Below are positions 10,528 through 28,138 of a stretch of DNA of 64,000 nucleotides, in pieces. Location: positions 62,001 through 126,000 of IMG/VR virus record IMGVR_UViG_3300037258_000282. One strand, 5' to 3'. The notes under the pieces were generated by a model. That model made no database searches. It worked only from the letters and a program-made list of their open reading frames with translations, and was not told the origin of the DNA. Both the position numbers and the translations under genes were made by a program. Every line of letters begins with the position of its first letter. Within the stretch, counting starts at the first letter, position 1. This DNA comes from a virus.

Positions 10528-11049
10528 TCACTTTCTTATGTACTTCATCAGGCCGATGCCAGAATAATCAACTTCGTGAGCGTTCTTTATCGCCCTATCC
10601 AGAGTTATCCTATTAACTAGACCCTCGAAGAACACCTTTCCATCGAGGTGCATCAGCTCGTGCTGTATGACTCTAGCCGTAATACCGGTATACTGGGCCG
10701 TGTCGACATGCGAGTTTGGTAAGGCAAACCTGAGTCTAATGTGAAGAGGTCGGCGGATTGGAACTACTAAGTGTGGATAGGTCACACACGCTTCGTTAAA
10801 CTTAAGATCTTCTGCTGAGAAAGTAAGCAGTCGCGGATTGAAGAACACGAAGTTCTCAGGAGAGCCCCTCATGGCGAATATTCTATAGGGTACGCCGACC
10901 TGATTCGACGCGAGGCCGACCGCTCCCGTTTCATACATAAAATGCACGAGCTCAGACGCGAACTCAATGGGATCGAACGGTGGGTTCGCGAAGTCAAACT
11001 CTTTAGTTGGAGTTGACAGTACTGGATCATCGTACCTCACTAGTTCCAT
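10528..11049 (-). CDS. def: Peptide deformylase
   Basis: A 173-residue deformylase, which removes the N-formyl group from new proteins using a bound Fe2+ or Zn2+. Motif 1 GAVGLASNQVG (42-52, Q50), motif 2 EACVT (86-90, metal ligand C88, where the common form is EGCLS) and motif 3 QHELMH (129-134, H130, E131, H134) are all present. Phage deformylases are known in cyanophages and other marine T4-like phages, where they are thought to help make host or phage proteins during infection. The Ala and Val-Thr changes in motif 2 are a variant also seen in divergent deformylases. ATG start at 11049, nine bases before gene 46 ends. Confidence 0.92.
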   Translation of the reverse strand: MELVRYDDPVLSTPTKEFDFANPPFDPIEFASELVHFMYETGAVGLASNQVGVPYRIFAMRGSPENFVFFNPRLLTFSAEDLKFNEACVTYPHLVVPIRRPLHIRLRFALPNSHVDTAQYTGITARVIQHELMHLDGKVFFEGLVNRITLDRAIKNAHEVDYSGIGLMKYIRK

Positions 11050-13881: not shown

Positions 13882-14403
13882 CTAAGAGGTCGCGGTGTCA
13901 ACCTTAGTCTTCTTCTTGATCTTGCTCTTTTCCATCGTGCTCTCAAACGATCTTATCACCTCTTCATGAGATAAATTTCTAGACACTTCTCCAGAATTTA
14001 CCATGTCATTCAGCAAGGTAGTCTCGAAGTATTTATGCTTGACGTAGTTCTGCTTCTTCTCCTTCGAGATCCTCCTGATATACGCGTTCCAGGCGATCTT
14101 AGTAAAGTATGCGAACGGATTGTTAGTCTTATCTGGGTTAAAGTTATCGACCGCCGCGATGCAGTCTAAGATTCCATCTCCGACGAGATCGTAGGTGTAT
14201 CCCGCGAAGTTTCCCTTCTTAGATAAATTCGCACAGATGAGCATTATCGCCCTACCTATGTAGTCAGGAACGATGGGCCTAGACTTCTCTGTCGCGTCGG
14301 CCTCAGCGATCATCTTCCGGTATTTCACCATCGCGTCGTAGAGATCGCGATTATTGATGTAGTTTCTAGTCTTCTTCTTGACCTGAGTCTTGATCTGCTG
14401 CAA
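13882..14403 (-). CDS. 55: Late-transcription sigma factor (gp55)
   Basis: A 173-residue divergent sigma factor. The stretch GDGILDCIAAVDNFNPDKTNNPFAYFTKIAWNAYIR contains a region-2-like helix set as in T4 gp55 (185 residues), which directs RNA polymerase to TATAAATA late promoters with gp45 and gp33. Such promoters are present in the structural half of this window, in agreement. The tail is lysine-rich. Start TTG at 14403, with GAGAGGG seven bases upstream and no ATG near the conserved N-terminus. The 388 bases before the gene hold the putative structured RNA. Confidence 0.9.
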   Translation of the reverse strand: MQQIKTQVKKKTRNYINNRDLYDAMVKYRKMIAEADATEKSRPIVPDYIGRAIMLICANLSKKGNFAGYTYDLVGDGILDCIAAVDNFNPDKTNNPFAYFTKIAWNAYIRRISKEKKQNYVKHKYFETTLLNDMVNSGEVSRNLSHEEVIRSFESTMEKSKIKKKTKVDTATS

Positions 14404-14503
14404 TAGTTAACCCTCTCTTAAAAAAAGAAATACTTTATCCCACTTATACGTAGTAGTGTGATGAATTTGTCACAGTTTTTTCCAAAAAGTCAAAGTTTTG
14501 CTA

Positions 14504-14532
14504 TTGACAAATCTGAGGTTTGACGGTATAAT
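14504..14532 (+). promoter_or_regulatory. Consensus sigma-70 promoter on the plus strand
   Basis: TTGACA at 14504-14509 and TATAAT at 14527-14532 are separated by exactly 17 bases, a perfect match to the bacterial housekeeping consensus. It points rightward, against every protein gene around it, so its product starts near 14540 and covers the hairpin-rich gap. It would be used by unmodified host RNA polymerase, that is, early in infection. Confidence 0.8.
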
Positions 14533-14540
14533 CGTCTCTT

Positions 14541-14772
14541 ACTACAGAGAGACAAACGACGAATTACCACTGAGCCGAGGACGCCGAAGGCGGACTCACG
14601 GAGGGCGACTCCGCCCGACGTCGACTGAACCACTCTCACTGAGACCACTGCGACTACCTTACGATCAACGTCAGCCAAGATGTGGGCTCTTCTGTAAAGA
14701 GCCCCTAGCGGGGCCACTGGCGGATCCATTGAACACTGGAGGGCAGGCCCTCCAGGACGCCTTGCGGCGTCA
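14541..14772 (+). ncRNA. Putative structured non-coding RNA
   Basis: Between genes 55 and uvsW lie 388 bases with no credible protein gene. Downstream of the consensus plus-strand promoter the sequence is a chain of GC-rich hairpins: CGCC-GAA-GGCG (14582-14592), GGGCG-ACTC-CGCCC (14603-14616), TCTC-ACT-GAGA (14634-14644), an 8-bp stem (14684-14704), CTGGAGGG-CAGG-CCCTCCAG (14736-14755) and GACGCC-TTGC-GGCGTC (14757-14772 within one base). I see no tRNA or tmRNA features and match it to no RNA family I know. No T-run follows the last hairpin, so the 3' end is uncertain and the RNA could extend antisense into uvsW. Hairpins are strand-symmetric; the strand is taken from the promoter. Confidence 0.5.
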
Positions 14773-14791
14773 TACCTGAGATCTTCTAGAA

Positions 14792-16243
14792 TCATATCGA
14801 GATATTATAGGTCTTAAATGGAAATTCTTCTGAAGCGTAGATCTTAAGTCTCTCGATCATGTGAAGGATGGTAAAATTCTTATGAGACTTCCACGATAGA
14901 TCGTCGGCGACGTCGTAGAGCTTCGCGTGACTCTTGGTATCGTGAAGCCTCAGCATCCTACCGATAGACTGAAGATTCTTGATCTTTCCCTTAGAAGGAG
15001 ACGCAAATATCACGTTGTGAAGCTTCTTAATATTAGTACCCGTCGAGAAAGTTCCATCAGACGCTACTATGATCGCGTCGTCTTCTGTCTCGATTATCTT
15101 ACGAATCTCATCTCTATCTAATCCATCTACCTCTCCGGATATATAGTAGACGTTCCTGTCACTACCTACTTCGTCTCGTATCATGTCATACAAGACCTTT
15201 CCATGCTTCTCCACGAAATGAAACATCACGAGAGTATTTCCCTTGAGTGATATAGCTAGATTCCTGATAAAGCAGTTTCTCTCTCTACACCTCACGAGAT
15301 GATCCATCTCCTCTGGATACTTCATCTTGAAGCAGGATTTTCTAACGTCATCTGAGTACTGAAGCACCAAGACCTTTATCTGAAGCTTAGATATCTTATC
15401 GTCATCCATAAGCTTCTTGGAGGTAGTCACTCGATAGGTAGGTCCAAATAGACCGTTTAGAACCATCTCATTACACTTGGTCCCATCAAGCGTTCCAGTA
15501 AAGCCGTACCTATACTTGACTTTAGTGCACTTCTCCATGATCCCAGTTATAGACTTAGCTTTCGCGAGATGAGCCTCATCGCCAACTACGCAAGAGAACT
15601 GATCGAACCACTCCTGCGGCATCTGAAATATACTCTGCCAGGTCGACACTATCACGTCACGATCAGTACTCTTATCGGCTCCAGCCATTATCTTATGACA
15701 GTAGTCCTCAGGAGCCCCATACTCAGTAAAATCTGACTCCATCTGATGCACGAGTTGAGTCGTCGGAACTATTATCAGCTTTCTTCCAGATACGTATCGA
15801 CATATGAGATATATCATCATCGACTTTCCAGATGCGGTTGGAGAGACGTAGAGCTCGCGCCTCTTCCTCACCGCCCTGACGAAAGTAGAGAACTGATAGT
15901 CGCGTAGCTCAAACTTCTCTGGAATCTTCAGCGTCTTGATGAAGTCCGCCGCCTCCTTTCCTGAGAATTGATCTTCAGTAAAGTCGGAAGACTTGTCGAA
16001 CTGATACCCACTCGACTTACAGAACTCTCCTATGGAATCTGCTAGCCCAGCGTATATCACGCACGTCATGGGGTTGAACAGGCGTATGCGCCCGTCCCAG
16101 ATTCCCCTCTTGTACAGGGGGGTGAACTTGTACCCCGGCACCATGAAGGAGAACGCGTCGCGAAGCTCGAATGCTGTAGATGGCTCGCAGTATATCTTCA
16201 AGTAGACCTCGTTGATCTTTACTATAGATACTACTTCTGTCAA
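14792..16243 (-). CDS. uvsW: RNA-DNA and DNA helicase UvsW
   Basis: A 483-residue superfamily 2 helicase. The N-terminal domain (ELRDAFSF, then GYKF and WDGRIRLF) matches T4 UvsW (ELRDFFSF, GYRF, WDGRIRLL). Walker A PTASGKS (135-141), DEAH (222-225), FTGTLDG and the C-terminal SIGRMLR follow. In T4 it unwinds R-loops and branched DNA and shifts origin replication to recombination-dependent replication. The start is TTG at 16243, with GGAAGG six bases upstream and just after the preceding stop; a longer frame would overlap the preceding gene and add residues absent from T4. Its 3' end abuts the structured-RNA region. Confidence 0.94.
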   Translation of the reverse strand: MTEVVSIVKINEVYLKIYCEPSTAFELRDAFSFMVPGYKFTPLYKRGIWDGRIRLFNPMTCVIYAGLADSIGEFCKSSGYQFDKSSDFTEDQFSGKEAADFIKTLKIPEKFELRDYQFSTFVRAVRKRRELYVSPTASGKSMMIYLICRYVSGRKLIIVPTTQLVHQMESDFTEYGAPEDYCHKIMAGADKSTDRDVIVSTWQSIFQMPQEWFDQFSCVVGDEAHLAKAKSITGIMEKCTKVKYRYGFTGTLDGTKCNEMVLNGLFGPTYRVTTSKKLMDDDKISKLQIKVLVLQYSDDVRKSCFKMKYPEEMDHLVRCRERNCFIRNLAISLKGNTLVMFHFVEKHGKVLYDMIRDEVGSDRNVYYISGEVDGLDRDEIRKIIETEDDAIIVASDGTFSTGTNIKKLHNVIFASPSKGKIKNLQSIGRMLRLHDTKSHAKLYDVADDLSWKSHKNFTILHMIERLKIYASEEFPFKTYNISI

Positions 16244-16244
16244 C

Positions 16245-16436
16245 TCATTCCTTCCACGTAAACTTATATGGCAACTCGCTGGGTCCAACCGCCGTGTTGT
16301 ACTTCTCGCAGTACTTATTTCTGCATCTCTTATAATATAAGTGAATCATCCTCGAATAGTCTATCTCGTGAGAGATCTTATAACTCGTGTTGCACGTTGG
16401 GCAATTAGACTCCCGCGCGAAATTTTTCATATTCAA
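16245..16436 (-). CDS. Small zinc-ribbon protein
   Basis: A 63-residue protein with CPTC (12-15) and CRNKYC (38-43), giving four cysteines in the pattern of a zinc ribbon. It lies between uvsY and uvsW and overlaps uvsY by 32 bases, the place where T4 has small genes of unknown role (uvsW.1, uvsY.-1). Start TTG at 16436 with AAGGAA five bases upstream; ATG at 16430 is the alternative. A nucleic-acid-binding or transcription role is possible, but nothing shows it. Confidence 0.75.
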   Translation of the reverse strand: MNMKNFARESNCPTCNTSYKISHEIDYSRMIHLYYKRCRNKYCEKYNTAVGPSELPYKFTWKE

Positions 16437-16839
16437 TAAAGTTCCTTATATTCCACCCGCGCTCTCTGAAGGTCTTTATTATCGAGTCGAGAGCCGAGAT
16501 CTTCTCCTGCTGAATTCCGATCTTGAATGAGAGAGCCATGATATCTGGATCAGCGTCCATATACATCGGTAGGTCCGACTTAAGTATCATACCCTTAGGA
16601 GGCAGCTTCCAACCCTTGGATAGCGTCTCCTGAGTGTGGCCCTGAGTGTAGAACTCATGCTTAGCCAGCTTCAACTCAGCGTACTCATACTCTAGAACGC
16701 GGACGCGCATCTTCTCCCCGACGTACATAGAGTAATATTTGTGATGAAGCTTAGCTATTCCCAGAGAGGACTCACCGAGGTTGGTCCTGTCTATCTCGGA
16801 GTCCTTACTCCAATTTTCCATTATGTCGTCTATAGTCAT
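16405..16839 (-). CDS. uvsY: Recombination mediator UvsY
   Basis: A 144-residue protein matching T4 UvsY (137 residues) in length, position next to uvsW and in shared segments: IDRTNLG near the start (T4 IDSTKL), a Tyr/Lys-rich middle with EFYTQGH (T4 DYYSGRG), and the end FIEYEKFRAGV (T4 IQDMRAFEAGK). UvsY loads the UvsX recombinase onto gp32-covered single-stranded DNA. ATG start; the 64 bases before it hold no gene. Confidence 0.88.
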   Translation of the reverse strand: MTIDDIMENWSKDSEIDRTNLGESSLGIAKLHHKYYSMYVGEKMRVRVLEYEYAELKLAKHEFYTQGHTQETLSKGWKLPPKGMILKSDLPMYMDADPDIMALSFKIGIQQEKISALDSIIKTFRERGWNIRNFIEYEKFRAGV

Positions 16840-17453: not shown

Positions 17454-17476
17454 AAAAAAAGGGACCCGAAGGTCCC
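17454..17476 (-). terminator. UUCG hairpin with T-run, terminator or mRNA 5' stabiliser
   Basis: On the minus strand GGGACC-TTCG-GGTCCC is followed by seven T residues. This is the C(UUCG)G tetraloop hairpin known from T4 intercistronic regions. It would end transcription of the homing endonuclease gene. It lies about 25-45 bases downstream of a late promoter, so it may instead cap and stabilise the late mRNA. Confidence 0.75.
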
Positions 17477-17499
17477 TAGTTACATTAACGATTTTTAGA

Positions 17500-17507
17500 T
17501 ATTTATA
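17500..17507 (-). promoter_or_regulatory. T4-type late promoter TATAAATA
   Basis: Exact TATAAATA on the minus strand, overlapping the last codons of the homing endonuclease gene. It is 72 bases upstream of the start of the virion protein gene at 17428, which otherwise would be cut off from late transcription by the terminator before the capsid gene's neighbour. Confidence 0.6.
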
Positions 17508-18897
17508 CGTATACGTACTTTGCGCTCCCGCAGTCCCATATCCTGTCGTAGCCCTCATCCAACATGATCTGCCACTCAGTTAGATCCTCAGAGTAGCTTG
17601 GAAATGCCTTCAGCTTGTGCTTCTGAAACCTAACTCTGGATGACAGGCCGGATGGATACCTCCTGTCAAAATACCAGTAGTTCGGCGGCGTGTCGGCCAC
17701 TCTCGAGAAGCCACATCTCTCATACACTCTCCCAGATCCAAAGCGCAGGTCCGCGTAGGTCATTATTCCGGTTGGTTCGTACTCTTCTATGAACCAACCG
17801 AAGAGTCTCGACGCGCCACCGGCGACCTGAGTGTTGGCGACCGTGGTCATGCGGATGCACTCCCAGTCTATAGTCTTATCAAAGCGAGACTTTCCCATGG
17901 TTAGCGTCTGAAGTAGCTCTCCGTCGCGCTCAAGCCCGAGGTGGACACTTCCCGGACGATGACCATGAGAGTGGTTCTTAGACGCGAACTCTGCGGCTAT
18001 TTTAGAATCTAAATGCAGAACCGCGCACTCTCTGGCGCCGACTCTCCTGGAGCACATACCGAGCTTGACGCGAATCAGTGACTTTGTCAGATCGAGGTCG
18101 TCGGTCTCGAATACGGTAATCAGGTCGTATCCAGCCGCCGCGCATAGATCTCTCTTCGTCTTATGGTAGCTCTTGGCCCTCTCTCCGGTAAACTCAGAGT
18201 GCCAGTATAGGCCGCAGTACTCTATGGCTAACTTCCTGGAGTGGCACACTACGTCGAGCTCATACGGTGGGATCACGGTTCTATCAGAGGACTCCCAGAT
18301 GAGTTCCGGAGACAGAGACTGGCAAAAGTTGAACAAGGCGATCTCCGCGACAGATCGAGATGGATTGATTGTAGTTATGTCATACTCCTTGACTAGTCTC
18401 TTTATAGATGTACCTGAGAGGTCGAAGTGTCTGCCTAGTTGCGTTAGATTCTTATACTCATCATAGGCGGTGATAAACTCCTCTTTGGTGGGGATCATCC
18501 TCTGCCACGCTTTGACCTTTGCAATCTTTATTGACTCTGATAGAGTGTTTCTCGTTATATTATATCCATCGAGCCAATTGTAGATAGTATCTTGGCCTAC
18601 ATGAAACATTTTAGTAAGAGCGTGAATAGAGTTATTTTTACAGAGAGATTCAAGCTCTTCTCTAGATGGAGGATCATTTTCTACCAGATGTCTCTGGGAT
18701 GCTTCAGTCGAAGCCTGCTTGTGGTCTTTTACGGGTATGCCATATGACTGAAGCCAATGTCTTATAGTTACGTGCGTGGTATCATATATCTTCGCCATCG
18801 ATGATAGGGTAGAGCCAAACCTGAAGTACTTATCTATGAGCTCTTCTCTTGATGGTTTAGTGAATCGCTTTCCGACGCCAGTTCCTGTAGAAGTCAT
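17503..18897 (-). CDS. Free-standing homing endonuclease (Hef-like, Vsr/EDxHD fold)
   Basis: A 464-residue mobile endonuclease. Three tandem helix-turn-helix repeats (about 15-57, 75-118, 132-175) each begin REEL/KEEF and end in a W- or K-containing recognition helix, suiting a long recognition site. Residues about 178-275 carry a Vsr-like nuclease core (YELDVVCHSRKLAIEYCG, LYWHSE, YHKTKRDLCAAAGYDLITVFE), as in Hef-type enzymes of T4-like phages. The C-terminal part (SHGHRPGSVHLGLE, VAGGASRLFGWFIEEY, DLRFGSGRVYERCGF, PNYWYF) is the acetyltransferase-like domain that often accompanies this core. It sits alone between two late genes, with its own sigma-70 promoter and a terminator on either side, as a self-contained insertion. 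Confidence 0.85.
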   Translation of the reverse strand: MTSTGTGVGKRFTKPSREELIDKYFRFGSTLSSMAKIYDTTHVTIRHWLQSYGIPVKDHKQASTEASQRHLVENDPPSREELESLCKNNSIHALTKMFHVGQDTIYNWLDGYNITRNTLSESIKIAKVKAWQRMIPTKEEFITAYDEYKNLTQLGRHFDLSGTSIKRLVKEYDITTINPSRSVAEIALFNFCQSLSPELIWESSDRTVIPPYELDVVCHSRKLAIEYCGLYWHSEFTGERAKSYHKTKRDLCAAAGYDLITVFETDDLDLTKSLIRVKLGMCSRRVGARECAVLHLDSKIAAEFASKNHSHGHRPGSVHLGLERDGELLQTLTMGKSRFDKTIDWECIRMTTVANTQVAGGASRLFGWFIEEYEPTGIMTYADLRFGSGRVYERCGFSRVADTPPNYWYFDRRYPSGLSSRVRFQKHKLKAFPSYSEDLTEWQIMLDEGYDRIWDCGSAKYVYV

Positions 18898-18927: not shown

Positions 18928-18956
18928 ATTTTATAACATCTATTAGTTGTTGTCAA
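18928..18956 (-). promoter_or_regulatory. Sigma-70-like promoter of the homing endonuclease
   Basis: On the minus strand TTGACA (18956-18951) and TAAAAT (18933-18928) are 17 bases apart. It lies 31 bases before the ATG of the homing endonuclease, giving it host-polymerase-driven expression independent of the late genes around it. Confidence 0.6.
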
Positions 18957-18957
18957 T

Positions 18958-18987
18958 AAAAAAGAGGACCCGCGGGTCCTCTTTTTT
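18958..18987 (-). terminator. Bidirectional rho-independent terminator after the capsid gene
   Basis: A 24-base perfect palindrome built on GAGGACCC-GGGTCCTC, flanked by six A on one side and six T on the other, so it can end transcription in both directions. It lies 23 bases after the major capsid gene and before the promoter of the homing endonuclease. Confidence 0.9.
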
Positions 18988-19009
18988 ATTATAATATGTG
19001 ATAAAAATA

Positions 19010-25078: not shown

Positions 25079-28000
25079 TTACTGTCCCTTGATATCTTGC
25101 CCAGCGGTACCTTTCGTCGCGCCGATAGACTTGGCTATCTCTGGATTCTTAGCTAGAATTTGCACCGCCGCCTTATACTTAGACTGATCCTGCATCGAGC
25201 GATTTTCCTTAGATTTCTTCTTCATCATCTCTATCGTCTGCTTGGCCTTTCTAACCTCTTCATACTTCTTGGCCTTATCGTCATCCACCATAGCATCGGA
25301 ATCTGAACCAACGTCCTGGGGCACATCATCTGGATTCTCATCTGGATTCTCATCTGGGTTCATCATATCTTGTGGCTGCCACCTCGGATCACCGGAGTCG
25401 AGCTCGGCCTGTATCTCGGCGTCCATCTTTTCGATGTCCTCATCTGACTGCTGGAGGACGTTCTTACGAACCCACTCATTAGAATAGTACTTACCTACCA
25501 TGTCCTGAAGATTTCTAGCGAGCTCAACTCTAGAAGTCAGTACCTCACCATCTTTTAGTTCAGTGAAGTAGTTATCCTTTGAGTAGTTATACTTTACTCT
25601 CTGCTCTATATCCTGCCAGTCCTCAAGAGACATAACCCCCTTGAGGACTAACTGCTTCTCGAGAAGCTTATTGAATATGATCGAGAAGCGTGAGCGAAGT
25701 CTTATGATGAACCGAGCAAACTTTACCTCGTCGCGCGTTACTTCGGTCGCCCTTCCCACGGAGAAAAGTGCGTCCGAGTTCAGTCGGGAGACAGGTACGT
25801 TGAGAGTCTGTAGAAACTTCTTCTGAAAGTATAAGACGTCGTCCATCTGCCCGAGGTTTTGACCTCCCGGCAGGGTAGTAACCTCAGTTCCACGCCCGCC
25901 CTCTCTTCTCGGAAGCCAGTAATCTTCAAGAGTTGTATTCTTTGAATAAATCCCACAGTCAAGCTGAAAGGTATGATGGCTATCATATGCCTCTTTTTCA
26001 AAGTCAATAGTCAGGCACCCGACGTCCATCTTCTCGTTGAGGAATTCTACAGATACGACCCTGTGGTTGTGCAGTTGCTCGGCGTGATACCCTCTAGAGC
26101 CAAAGTCTCCCTTGATGTTATTTCTATCTAATCCACTGGCGCGGCAGAAAGCGCTGAGATTCTCAATTATCTCAATCTGTCCGTCAGGAGCAGTGATCTT
26201 CCATGACTTACACGCAACAGAAGTTCTATTTTTAGCCGCTACAGATAGTGACTCTCTCCACTGTGTATTATTTGACATATCAACGTATCGCTTTAGCGTA
26301 CTGCGTTGCTTTTTATTATGTACTATTTTCGAAGCAAACTGAGCTGAGTAGCTCTTCCAGTTCTTATGTCCGAGGCGCCCGCACACTTTAAGCAGGTCGC
26401 GATACAGGAACTTCCAGGGCACGATAGCCCTCTTGGGCATGATGGTGTCGGCATTAGCGCTCATCCACGCCGCATGATCGATCTTCTCATTGATTAGTTT
26501 TAGAGCTTCCGCTCCTCTCATCTGGTCTCTGGCGCACTTCTCTACTACACCGTATATCTCGTCGGTGTATAATAGAGTTCGAGCCTCGGCATTCTTTATC
26601 TTCAACTCATCGCTGTTACAGAACACCGAGTGGTACTTCCAGTGATCCCTGTTGTTCATCATGACAAGGTTCTCTGGATTATTGTTGTATCTATTTAAGT
26701 CGAAGTGGTGAACTGTCCTCTTGTTTAGGTGGTTCAAGTCAGCATCATAAGAGAATTCCTCGCGAAGCCCGTTCTCGTCTTTCCACTTAGATACCGCGCG
26801 ATGAGTAAATACCCACTTCTTACTGTCATTTTGATATATCTGCTCGTACTCTCTTCCACCATCTTCTATGGGAGACATCCTCCTATAGCCTGGAATGATC
26901 GACTCACCAATCGCGAGGTGCTGAGCCTCGACGAACCCCTTGTTCCAAACTGGAAACTTGTGATCTGGTGTGCAGACAACGCTCTTGCCATTGTCAAGAG
27001 TGACGCGAACTACGTCGGAGTCTCTCTTAGTGATGCCAGCCCACTCTACTGGTCCTGGCGCGAATTTACCAGTCATGGGATCGCATGAGTATACCCAGTT
27101 CTTCTTACCAGCCTCGTACTCGGCGATTATCTCTTCTAGCGGAAGAGTGCGACCATCCAGCAGTGGTATTCTCGTATCTAACGCGAGACACATGAACTTG
27201 CGATCGTCACGAACCTCACCAGACGCGGCGTCATATATGAGACGATTCTTGTGCTTCACCATGATCTCGCGGACGTACTGCTCCGCCTTGATCTTTGGAA
27301 GATTACCGACGTCGATGTACCATATTCTTCTCTCGGGGGCTCTCGCGATCCTGTATATGACCATGGAGTCTTCGAGCGTCCTAAGCTGGTTCAGAGACTT
27401 AATGCCCTTATGCAGATAGGACAGGACCATGGTCCCACCGTTATCTGTCAGCCCGGATACTACGTGAAGTATGGAATCTACCGCGATCTTTAGGCCGTTA
27501 GTCGCAGGGCCAGATGGCTTATTTCCGTAGTTGAACCCCTTATCGTTGAACACGAAGTACTCGTTAGCAACGCGAGTGATCGTGGCGTCACCGCCTCCGA
27601 TACCTCCAGATGAGCCTCCCTGAACTCGCTTTCGAGCGACCTCGCGAATCTTACGGATCTTTCTCGGATCTATGTATCGAAGTTCCTTGATGCCACCAGA
27701 CGTATCGTTCTCATCTATGATGACGTGATAGTATAGGCGCCCATCGATATACCAGCGCCTGAGAATGTCGTACGCGTATTTGTTAAAATCGAGAAGGTCT
27801 AGGCAGTTGTGAAACTCCTCGATTATGACCTTCTTAATATTATCAGAGATATTGACTTTATCTAGATTTATATCTACGATGGTCTCTTCGTCGATAGACA
27901 TAGCTTCATTGACTATCTCATCGATAGCCGAATCGCACTCCGGCTGGAGCGACATCTCTCGATATTTAGTGACGAGTTCGGCCTCAGTTCGAACAGTTCC

Positions 28001-28138
28001 ATCTAGATCGATGTACGTTCCGAACGAGCCACCGGCCGCGACGATAACAGCTCCGTCCTCATTATCCCTCGGGGCGAATGAGACTAGCTGCTTGTCTAGC
28101 GGTACTTTTCTCTTAAACTCAAATCCGAATAGCATCAT
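25079..28138 (-). CDS. 20: Portal vertex protein (gp20) interrupted by an intein
   Basis: A 1019-codon frame coding for a 601-residue portal after removal of a 418-residue intein (317-734). Extein landmarks: CDSAIDEIVNEA (68-79), YYHVIID (136-142), IYRIARAPERRIWYIDVGNLPKIKAEQY (261-288), RDDRKFM just before the intein and TTLEDYWLPRREGG just after it, a junction that rebuilds the invariant gp20 segment RKFM.MLEDYWLPRREGG. The portal is the dodecameric DNA gate and head-tail connector. The C-terminus is Asp/Pro-rich with a short PDEN repeat and a lysine-rich helix. ATG start. Confidence 0.95.
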   Translation of the reverse strand: MMLFGFEFKRKVPLDKQLVSFAPRDNEDGAVIVAAGGSFGTYIDLDGTVRTEAELVTKYREMSLQPECDSAIDEIVNEAMSIDEETIVDINLDKVNISDNIKKVIIEEFHNCLDLLDFNKYAYDILRRWYIDGRLYYHVIIDENDTSGGIKELRYIDPRKIRKIREVARKRVQGGSSGGIGGGDATITRVANEYFVFNDKGFNYGNKPSGPATNGLKIAVDSILHVVSGLTDNGGTMVLSYLHKGIKSLNQLRTLEDSMVIYRIARAPERRIWYIDVGNLPKIKAEQYVREIMVKHKNRLIYDAASGEVRDDRKFMCLALDTRIPLLDGRTLPLEEIIAEYEAGKKNWVYSCDPMTGKFAPGPVEWAGITKRDSDVVRVTLDNGKSVVCTPDHKFPVWNKGFVEAQHLAIGESIIPGYRRMSPIEDGGREYEQIYQNDSKKWVFTHRAVSKWKDENGLREEFSYDADLNHLNKRTVHHFDLNRYNNNPENLVMMNNRDHWKYHSVFCNSDELKIKNAEARTLLYTDEIYGVVEKCARDQMRGAEALKLINEKIDHAAWMSANADTIMPKRAIVPWKFLYRDLLKVCGRLGHKNWKSYSAQFASKIVHNKKQRSTLKRYVDMSNNTQWRESLSVAAKNRTSVACKSWKITAPDGQIEIIENLSAFCRASGLDRNNIKGDFGSRGYHAEQLHNHRVVSVEFLNEKMDVGCLTIDFEKEAYDSHHTFQLDCGIYSKNTTLEDYWLPRREGGRGTEVTTLPGGQNLGQMDDVLYFQKKFLQTLNVPVSRLNSDALFSVGRATEVTRDEVKFARFIIRLRSRFSIIFNKLLEKQLVLKGVMSLEDWQDIEQRVKYNYSKDNYFTELKDGEVLTSRVELARNLQDMVGKYYSNEWVRKNVLQQSDEDIEKMDAEIQAELDSGDPRWQPQDMMNPDENPDENPDDVPQDVGSDSDAMVDDDKAKKYEEVRKAKQTIEMMKKKSKENRSMQDQSKYKAAVQILAKNPEIAKSIGATKGTAGQDIKGQ
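25327..25362 (-). repeat. Short tandem repeat in the portal gene
   Basis: Three 12-base units (catctggattct on the plus strand, the third diverged) encode PDEN-PDEN-PDDV in the acidic C-terminal tail of the portal protein. Confidence 0.7.
25937..27190 (-). mobile_element. Intein with HNH homing endonuclease in the portal gene
   Basis: A 418-residue in-frame insertion. It begins with Cys317 (block A, CLALDTRIPLLDGRTLPLEEI), has block B TPDH (390-393), an HNH endonuclease domain with TVHHFDLNRYNNNPENLVMMNN and HWKYH (about 475-503), and ends with a block F/G region AYDSHHTFQLDCGIYSKN, Asn734, followed by Thr as the +1 nucleophile. Splicing restores the portal sequence exactly. The penultimate residue is Lys instead of the usual His. 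The HNH domain would make the intein mobile between portal genes. Confidence 0.9.

Follow-up and report, generated by a model that had tools for sequence, protein, structure and literature searches.

The stretch of DNA analysed here, called the window throughout, is 64,000 nucleotides long and corresponds to bases 62001–126000 of a 152,589-base virus record that represents a T4-like phage. Within it, a leftward run of genes comprises 23, uvsY, uvsW, 55, 47 and 46, in that order. The uvsW helicase gene (14792–16288, minus strand), whose product matches UvsW of T4-like phages, ends at 14792, and gene 55, which encodes the late sigma factor (13882–14403, minus strand), begins at 14403, leaving a gap of 388 bases that holds a promoter and a hairpin-rich stretch; uvsY follows on the other side of uvsW (16405–16839, minus strand). 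The element in the gap is single-copy, as judged by self-comparison of the genome. The best full-length match to UvsW among viral contigs is 57% identical and the best match to the major capsid protein 82%, and a search of bacterial genome contigs with UvsW found nothing.

Several other features of this genome were recorded along the way. A permuted tmRNA of the alphaproteobacterial type (RF01849, RF04321), located at L036:9855–10142 on the minus strand (genome positions ~135355–135642) and with the predicted tag ANDNFACEARLAA, points to an alphaproteobacterial host. The genome also carries ~26 tRNA genes (L032:8210–16351, L033:11644–11918 and L036), most of which are clustered at 8–16 kb, and a non-coding tandem array at L032:4079–4331 with units of the AGCTCTAG/GGTCAGAG type and periods of 12, 25, 37 and 87. 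In the window, the portal gene gp20 (25079–28138, minus strand) contains an intein: the encoded Portal_T4 domain (Pfam) is split by an Intein_splicing domain over residues 325–712. Gene 23 is separated from the next structural gene by a free-standing homing-endonuclease-like gene (PHROG 3339; 17503–18897, minus strand), which has a promoter of its own (11/12) at 18956 and a strong terminator hairpin at 17460–17477. Genes for a C-5 cytosine DNA methylase (704–1906) and a peptide deformylase (10528–11049) are found on the same strand.

The promoter in the gap (14504–14532, plus strand) agrees with the sigma-70 consensus TTGACA-17-TATAAT at all 12 positions. It is the sole perfect match in the window, for which shuffled sequences predict 0.01, and the perfect right-facing promoter named in the preliminary description is thus confirmed. 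The genome as a whole has a second perfect site, and nine others reach 11/12; those of the perfect and 11-of-12 sites that are intergenic lie mostly upstream of genes on the same strand. The minus strand carries all of genes 46, 47, 55, uvsW, uvsY and 23, which makes the promoter antisense to its surroundings, as had also been claimed. It stands opposite uvsW and reads toward the 3′ end of that gene at 14792 with no terminator in between. The 3′ end of uvsW is consequently the first target of the predicted antisense transcript, uvsY is located farther along the path, and gene 55 lies behind the promoter, outside the path. A dyad, GTCTCT-8-AGAGAC (14534–14553, plus strand), spans the predicted start site at ~14539–14541.

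Behind the promoter, the predicted antisense RNA begins with a hairpin-rich untranslated leader of ~250 nt (14539–14791, plus strand). The hairpins, all on the plus strand, are CGCC-GAA-GGCG at 14582–14592 (pair probability 1.0; a GAG/CTC extension carries it to 14577–14597), GGGCG-ACTC-CGCCC at 14603–14616 (pair probability 0.99), a pair of mutually exclusive forms within 14684–14714, namely GGGCTCTT-CTGTA-AAGAGCCC (14684–14704) or GCCCC-TAGC-GGGGC (14701–14714), and two perfect hairpins, CTGGAGGG-CAGG-CCCTCCAG at 14736–14755 and GACGCC-TTGC-GGCGTC at 14756–14771, the latter of which has a GCAA tetraloop when read on the minus strand. Thus the region is indeed hairpin-rich, although the earlier count of at least six was slightly overstated, since the number of local GC hairpins with good support is five, one of them with a competing alternative form. 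The base composition is unlike that of the neighbours, as first described, with a GC content of ~0.53–0.58 at 14500–14799 vs 0.38–0.47 just outside.

The plus strand of 14539–14791 is predicted to fold with −92.0 kcal/mol (z = −3.3), better than 400 of 400 dinucleotide shuffles, and the minus strand likewise beats 400 of 400 (z = −2.9); since both strands fold well, folding is silent on which of them is functional. Of the 68 perfect GC hairpins with arms of at least six bases in the 152.6-kb genome, three fall within 90 bases here, so that this cluster ranks in the top two for density. Once folding energy is corrected for composition, the region is unexceptional, with many other stretches of the genome scoring better. 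The plus strand shows no intrinsic terminator in the vicinity of the leader, and there is thus no indication of a discrete small RNA; farther on, behind gene 23, a strong hairpin between A and T runs at ~18958–18988 could terminate the antisense RNA in this genome. No family matched the region in an Rfam search at E ≤ 5, in line with the earlier statement that no known RNA family was recognized, and at the gathering cut-off the window and most of the genome returned only tRNAs and tmRNA. Compared by BLAST with phages, plasmids and E. coli, the interval gave chance matches or none, and an exact search of viral contigs for the first hairpin gave two matches, both within coding sequence of unrelated phages. 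As a sequence, then, the predicted hairpin-rich non-coding RNA is real, so far in this phage only.

The promoter has a much wider distribution, being conserved among the cyanophage-like T4 phages at the border of gene 55 with uvsW or with the small gene after it. In relatives, uvsW is followed by gene 55 either directly or with a small gene of ~130 codons in between, and many of them carry a consensus sigma-70 promoter in the gap in the same antisense orientation. The promoter is kept at gap sizes from 42 bp to several hundred bp, being present even where the gap is only 42–56 bases. Conservation was assessed at 76 non-redundant loci in a 210-base segment around the start of gene 55, with dinucleotide shuffles providing the expectation: 23 of the 76 loci have an antisense site of at least 11/12, where 0.45 would be expected, and in 10 loci the site is perfect, where 0 would be. 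When upstream regions of different genes in these loci were compared for antisense sites of at least 11/12, gene 55 had them in 17 of 69 cases, as opposed to 2/59 for uvsW, 3/55 for uvsY, 1/60 for gp47, 2/52 for the gp19-like gene and 1/33 for the capsid gene mcp.

Named phages give the same picture. With the uvsW-55 order, 17 of 18 have an antisense site of at least 10/12, and 15 of 18 one of at least 11/12. The 17 are phiM12, phiN3, phiM7, DLP_6, Mosig, HTVC008M, P-SSM2, S-CAM7, P-HM1, P-TIM68, S-RIM14, ACG-2014a, ACG-2014d, ACG-2014f, S-RIM2, S-P4 and Sf-CH11, and their hosts are rhizobial, Stenotrophomonas, Pelagibacter and cyanobacterial; Melnitz is the sole exception. In nearly all of those with a site of at least 11/12, it is the only such site on the antisense strand in the 6–19 kb examined. 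None of three T4-related phages lacking the uvsW-55 order (SV76, Vibrio CZ01 and RL2RES) has the antisense promoter. Four relatively close relatives (L081, L089, L093 and L096), in which uvsW and gene 55 are spaced by at most 16 bases or overlap, are also without it, and hence the promoter is not essential. Our literature search, whose coverage did not extend to the Syn9 transcriptome, yielded no paper describing an antisense promoter between uvsW and gene 55. Judged by sequence comparison, the promoter is real and part of a conserved antisense element, and the recurrence of the same backward promoter at the same spot in many distant phages makes it probable that transcription in this direction is a genuine control device that they share.

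Conservation includes the start site. The trinucleotide TGT is found ~5–9 bases behind the −10 box (TGT starting at 5, 6 or 7) in 33 of 40 loci, for which shuffles predict 2.6, compared with 13 of 140 at the same position in other strong promoters of the same loci. Examples with the motif are the uvsW/55 antisense promoters at L154:14979–15006 (phiM12) and L155:4420–4447. The promoter of the present phage has no TGT there, and the dyad GTCTCT-8-AGAGAC stands in its place. TGT often centres a short dyad, such as AACGG-TGT-CCGTT in Mosig, and phiM12 has CAGGA-ATG-TCCTG at its start site. A start-site dyad was considered as a general rule and rejected; stems of at least five bases occur in 5 of 30 cases where 1.3 are expected, which is only mildly above chance, so that the conserved item is the TGT and not the dyad.

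What follows the promoter is different from phage to phage. The first 250 bases of the relatives' antisense transcripts mostly fold like shuffled sequence (z mostly −1 to 0.5, with four beyond −2 and the lowest at −2.5), which makes the strong hairpin array special to the present lineage: the stems are not conserved in related phages, the promoter is. By the criterion that the preliminary description itself set for refutation, this counts against the stems but not against the promoter. Its hairpin-rich non-coding RNA or sponge therefore lacks support as a conserved entity, having no terminator, no homologue and no similarly structured counterpart in relatives. In phiM12, a 48-codon frame with a plausible ribosome-binding site comes immediately after the promoter, where a hypothetical gene of 50 codons is annotated (L154:14772–14924, minus strand), and phiM7 carries this small gene behind its antisense promoter as well; the product may thus differ between lineages. 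The antisense transcripts of Mosig and S-CAM7, a Pelagibacter phage and a cyanophage, have in common a stretch of 16–20 bases, AAGACACTTTAAGTAC, which is located near L155:4385–4410 and L159:4375–4400, beside the small gene's stop. Antisense terminators are nearly absent from the relatives, and the RNA should accordingly enter the antisense strand of uvsW in most phages.

We propose, with a probability of about one half, that the conserved element is an early promoter for the host sigma-70 polymerase that damps the uvsW block by antisense transcription, and that in this lineage it has acquired a structured leader. Host RNA polymerase would start near 14540, make the ~250-nt untranslated leader of GC hairpins and continue into uvsW, perhaps as far as uvsY. 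Collision with polymerases on the sense strand, together with duplex formation, would hold down expression of the uvsW-uvsY block during early infection, and the promoter would also separate this block from gene 55. The block would be released once late transcription, which depends on gene 55, replaces that from the waning host-type promoters. The leader may stabilise the untranslated RNA or shield it from Rho. Damping early in infection would be reasonable given that the UvsW of T4 is made late and removes R-loops at origins; the late timing of uvsW in the present phages is our assumption, carried over from T4. Antisense control of uvsW had been suggested in the preliminary description, and the promoter's retention in very divergent phages, including those with a gap of only 42–56 bp and no hairpin array, gives it strong indirect support, while the regulation itself is something we infer. 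For gene 55, which the same description also named as a target of antisense control, there is no support, since the promoter points away from it. Somewhat more speculatively, the dedicated antisense promoter at the uvsW/55 boundary, TTGACA-16/17-TATAAT-N4-5-TGT, may be an early-to-late timing switch shared by the cyanophage-like T4 phages, whose cargo varies with the lineage, e.g., the 48-aa frame in phiM12 and the hairpin RNA here; we hold this broader view tentatively.

Other explanations deserve consideration, the strongest of which makes the antisense RNA a by-product. The site could be one half of a divergent promoter pair serving mainly gene 55, whose expression would be tuned through supercoiling or through competition between polymerases. 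Gene 55 does have a sigma-70-type promoter on the sense strand, adjoining the antisense one back to back, in most of the named phages that were checked, and the −35 boxes of the two overlap in several cyanophages. However, the antisense promoter is kept in the window, phiM12, phiN3, phiM7 and DLP_6, where there is no good adjoining sense promoter, and competition alone has no need of the TGT that is conserved at the start site; we regard such a pair as an improbable explanation. Rather less probable is a replication origin of the T4 oriE/oriF kind, at which the promoter transcript would persist as an R-loop and prime leading-strand synthesis. There is precedent in T4, where origin transcripts persist as R-loops that UvsW removes, and a strong promoter opposing late genes next to uvsW, followed by a GC-rich leader and having a conserved start site, would suit an origin. 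Nevertheless, GC skew and fourfold-site skew are unchanged at this point of the genome (76.5 kb), the interval is without iterons or a repeat array, and the conserved part consists of the promoter and start site, not of a downstream unwinding element.

The remaining alternatives concern the product. A discrete, structured small RNA processed from the leader and acting as regulator, decoy or sponge would account for the strong promoter ahead, for a fold that surpasses every shuffle and for the dense cluster of perfect hairpins; it is at odds with the missing terminator, with the lack of a homologue or Rfam match, with the want of comparably structured counterparts in relatives and, for a CsrA sponge, with the absence of the GGA-in-loop pattern, and we think it about as doubtful as the origin. 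Least credible is a small protein gene, encoded either by a 101-aa frame on the minus strand, in the place of the relatives' 130-aa gene, or by a plus-strand frame of 93 aa. In its favour, the minus frame spans the entire gap uninterrupted and begins at the uvsW stop with an ATGA overlap, and relatives do carry a gene in that position. Yet its codon score is −0.138 and that of the plus frame −0.168, both under the 1st percentile (−0.10) of real coding stretches of 101 codons; searches of Pfam and PHROG with the two frames gave nothing above the cut-off and one weak Pfam match below it; and the plus frame, just past the promoter, has neither an ATG nor a visible ribosome-binding site. Both frames had initially been read as non-coding, and these scores agree. 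Taken together, an origin, a protein gene and a sponge RNA are less supported than the early antisense promoter.

If early antisense damping is real, a regulatory element has been kept in place in phages that infect cyanobacteria, Pelagibacter, rhizobia and Stenotrophomonas, despite flanking genes that share ~40–55% identity in the present comparisons. It would also offer a testable answer to how the recombination/late block is timed in phages without the T4 middle-mode proteins, among which are the cyanomyoviruses (PMC2984593).

Parallels to several known systems can be drawn. The leader resembles CsrB/RsmZ in having several hairpins in ~250 nt; unlike those RNAs, its loops (GAA, ACTC, CTGTA/TAGC, CAGG and TTGC) in no case present GGA, and no Rfam match was obtained. 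The early transcripts repEA/repEB of T4 origin E start from an early promoter that is reversed within a late-gene region, and the promoter described here is set opposite its surroundings in the same way. The window differs from origin E in having no convincing small frame, iterons or skew change, whereas phiM12 has its 48-aa frame in the corresponding position. Lambda (paQ) and P22 (sar) also have antisense promoters directed at late genes. The likeness to these lies in a host-polymerase promoter that opposes a late-gene region and would yield untranslated antisense RNA; the phages, genes and sequences are different, and no terminated short RNA is predicted at uvsW/55. A further parallel is CfrI, an antisense RNA of ~225 nt from the cyanophage S-PM2 (Millard et al. 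2010; cited in PMC2984593 and PMC5931967), which is likened here by its published description as an antisense RNA in a cyanophage-like T4 phage. According to that description, CfrI is found at psbA and a homing endonuclease gene, whereas the present site is at uvsW/55 and conserved over many genera, and the antisense leader of this phage differs from CfrI in its GC-rich hairpins.
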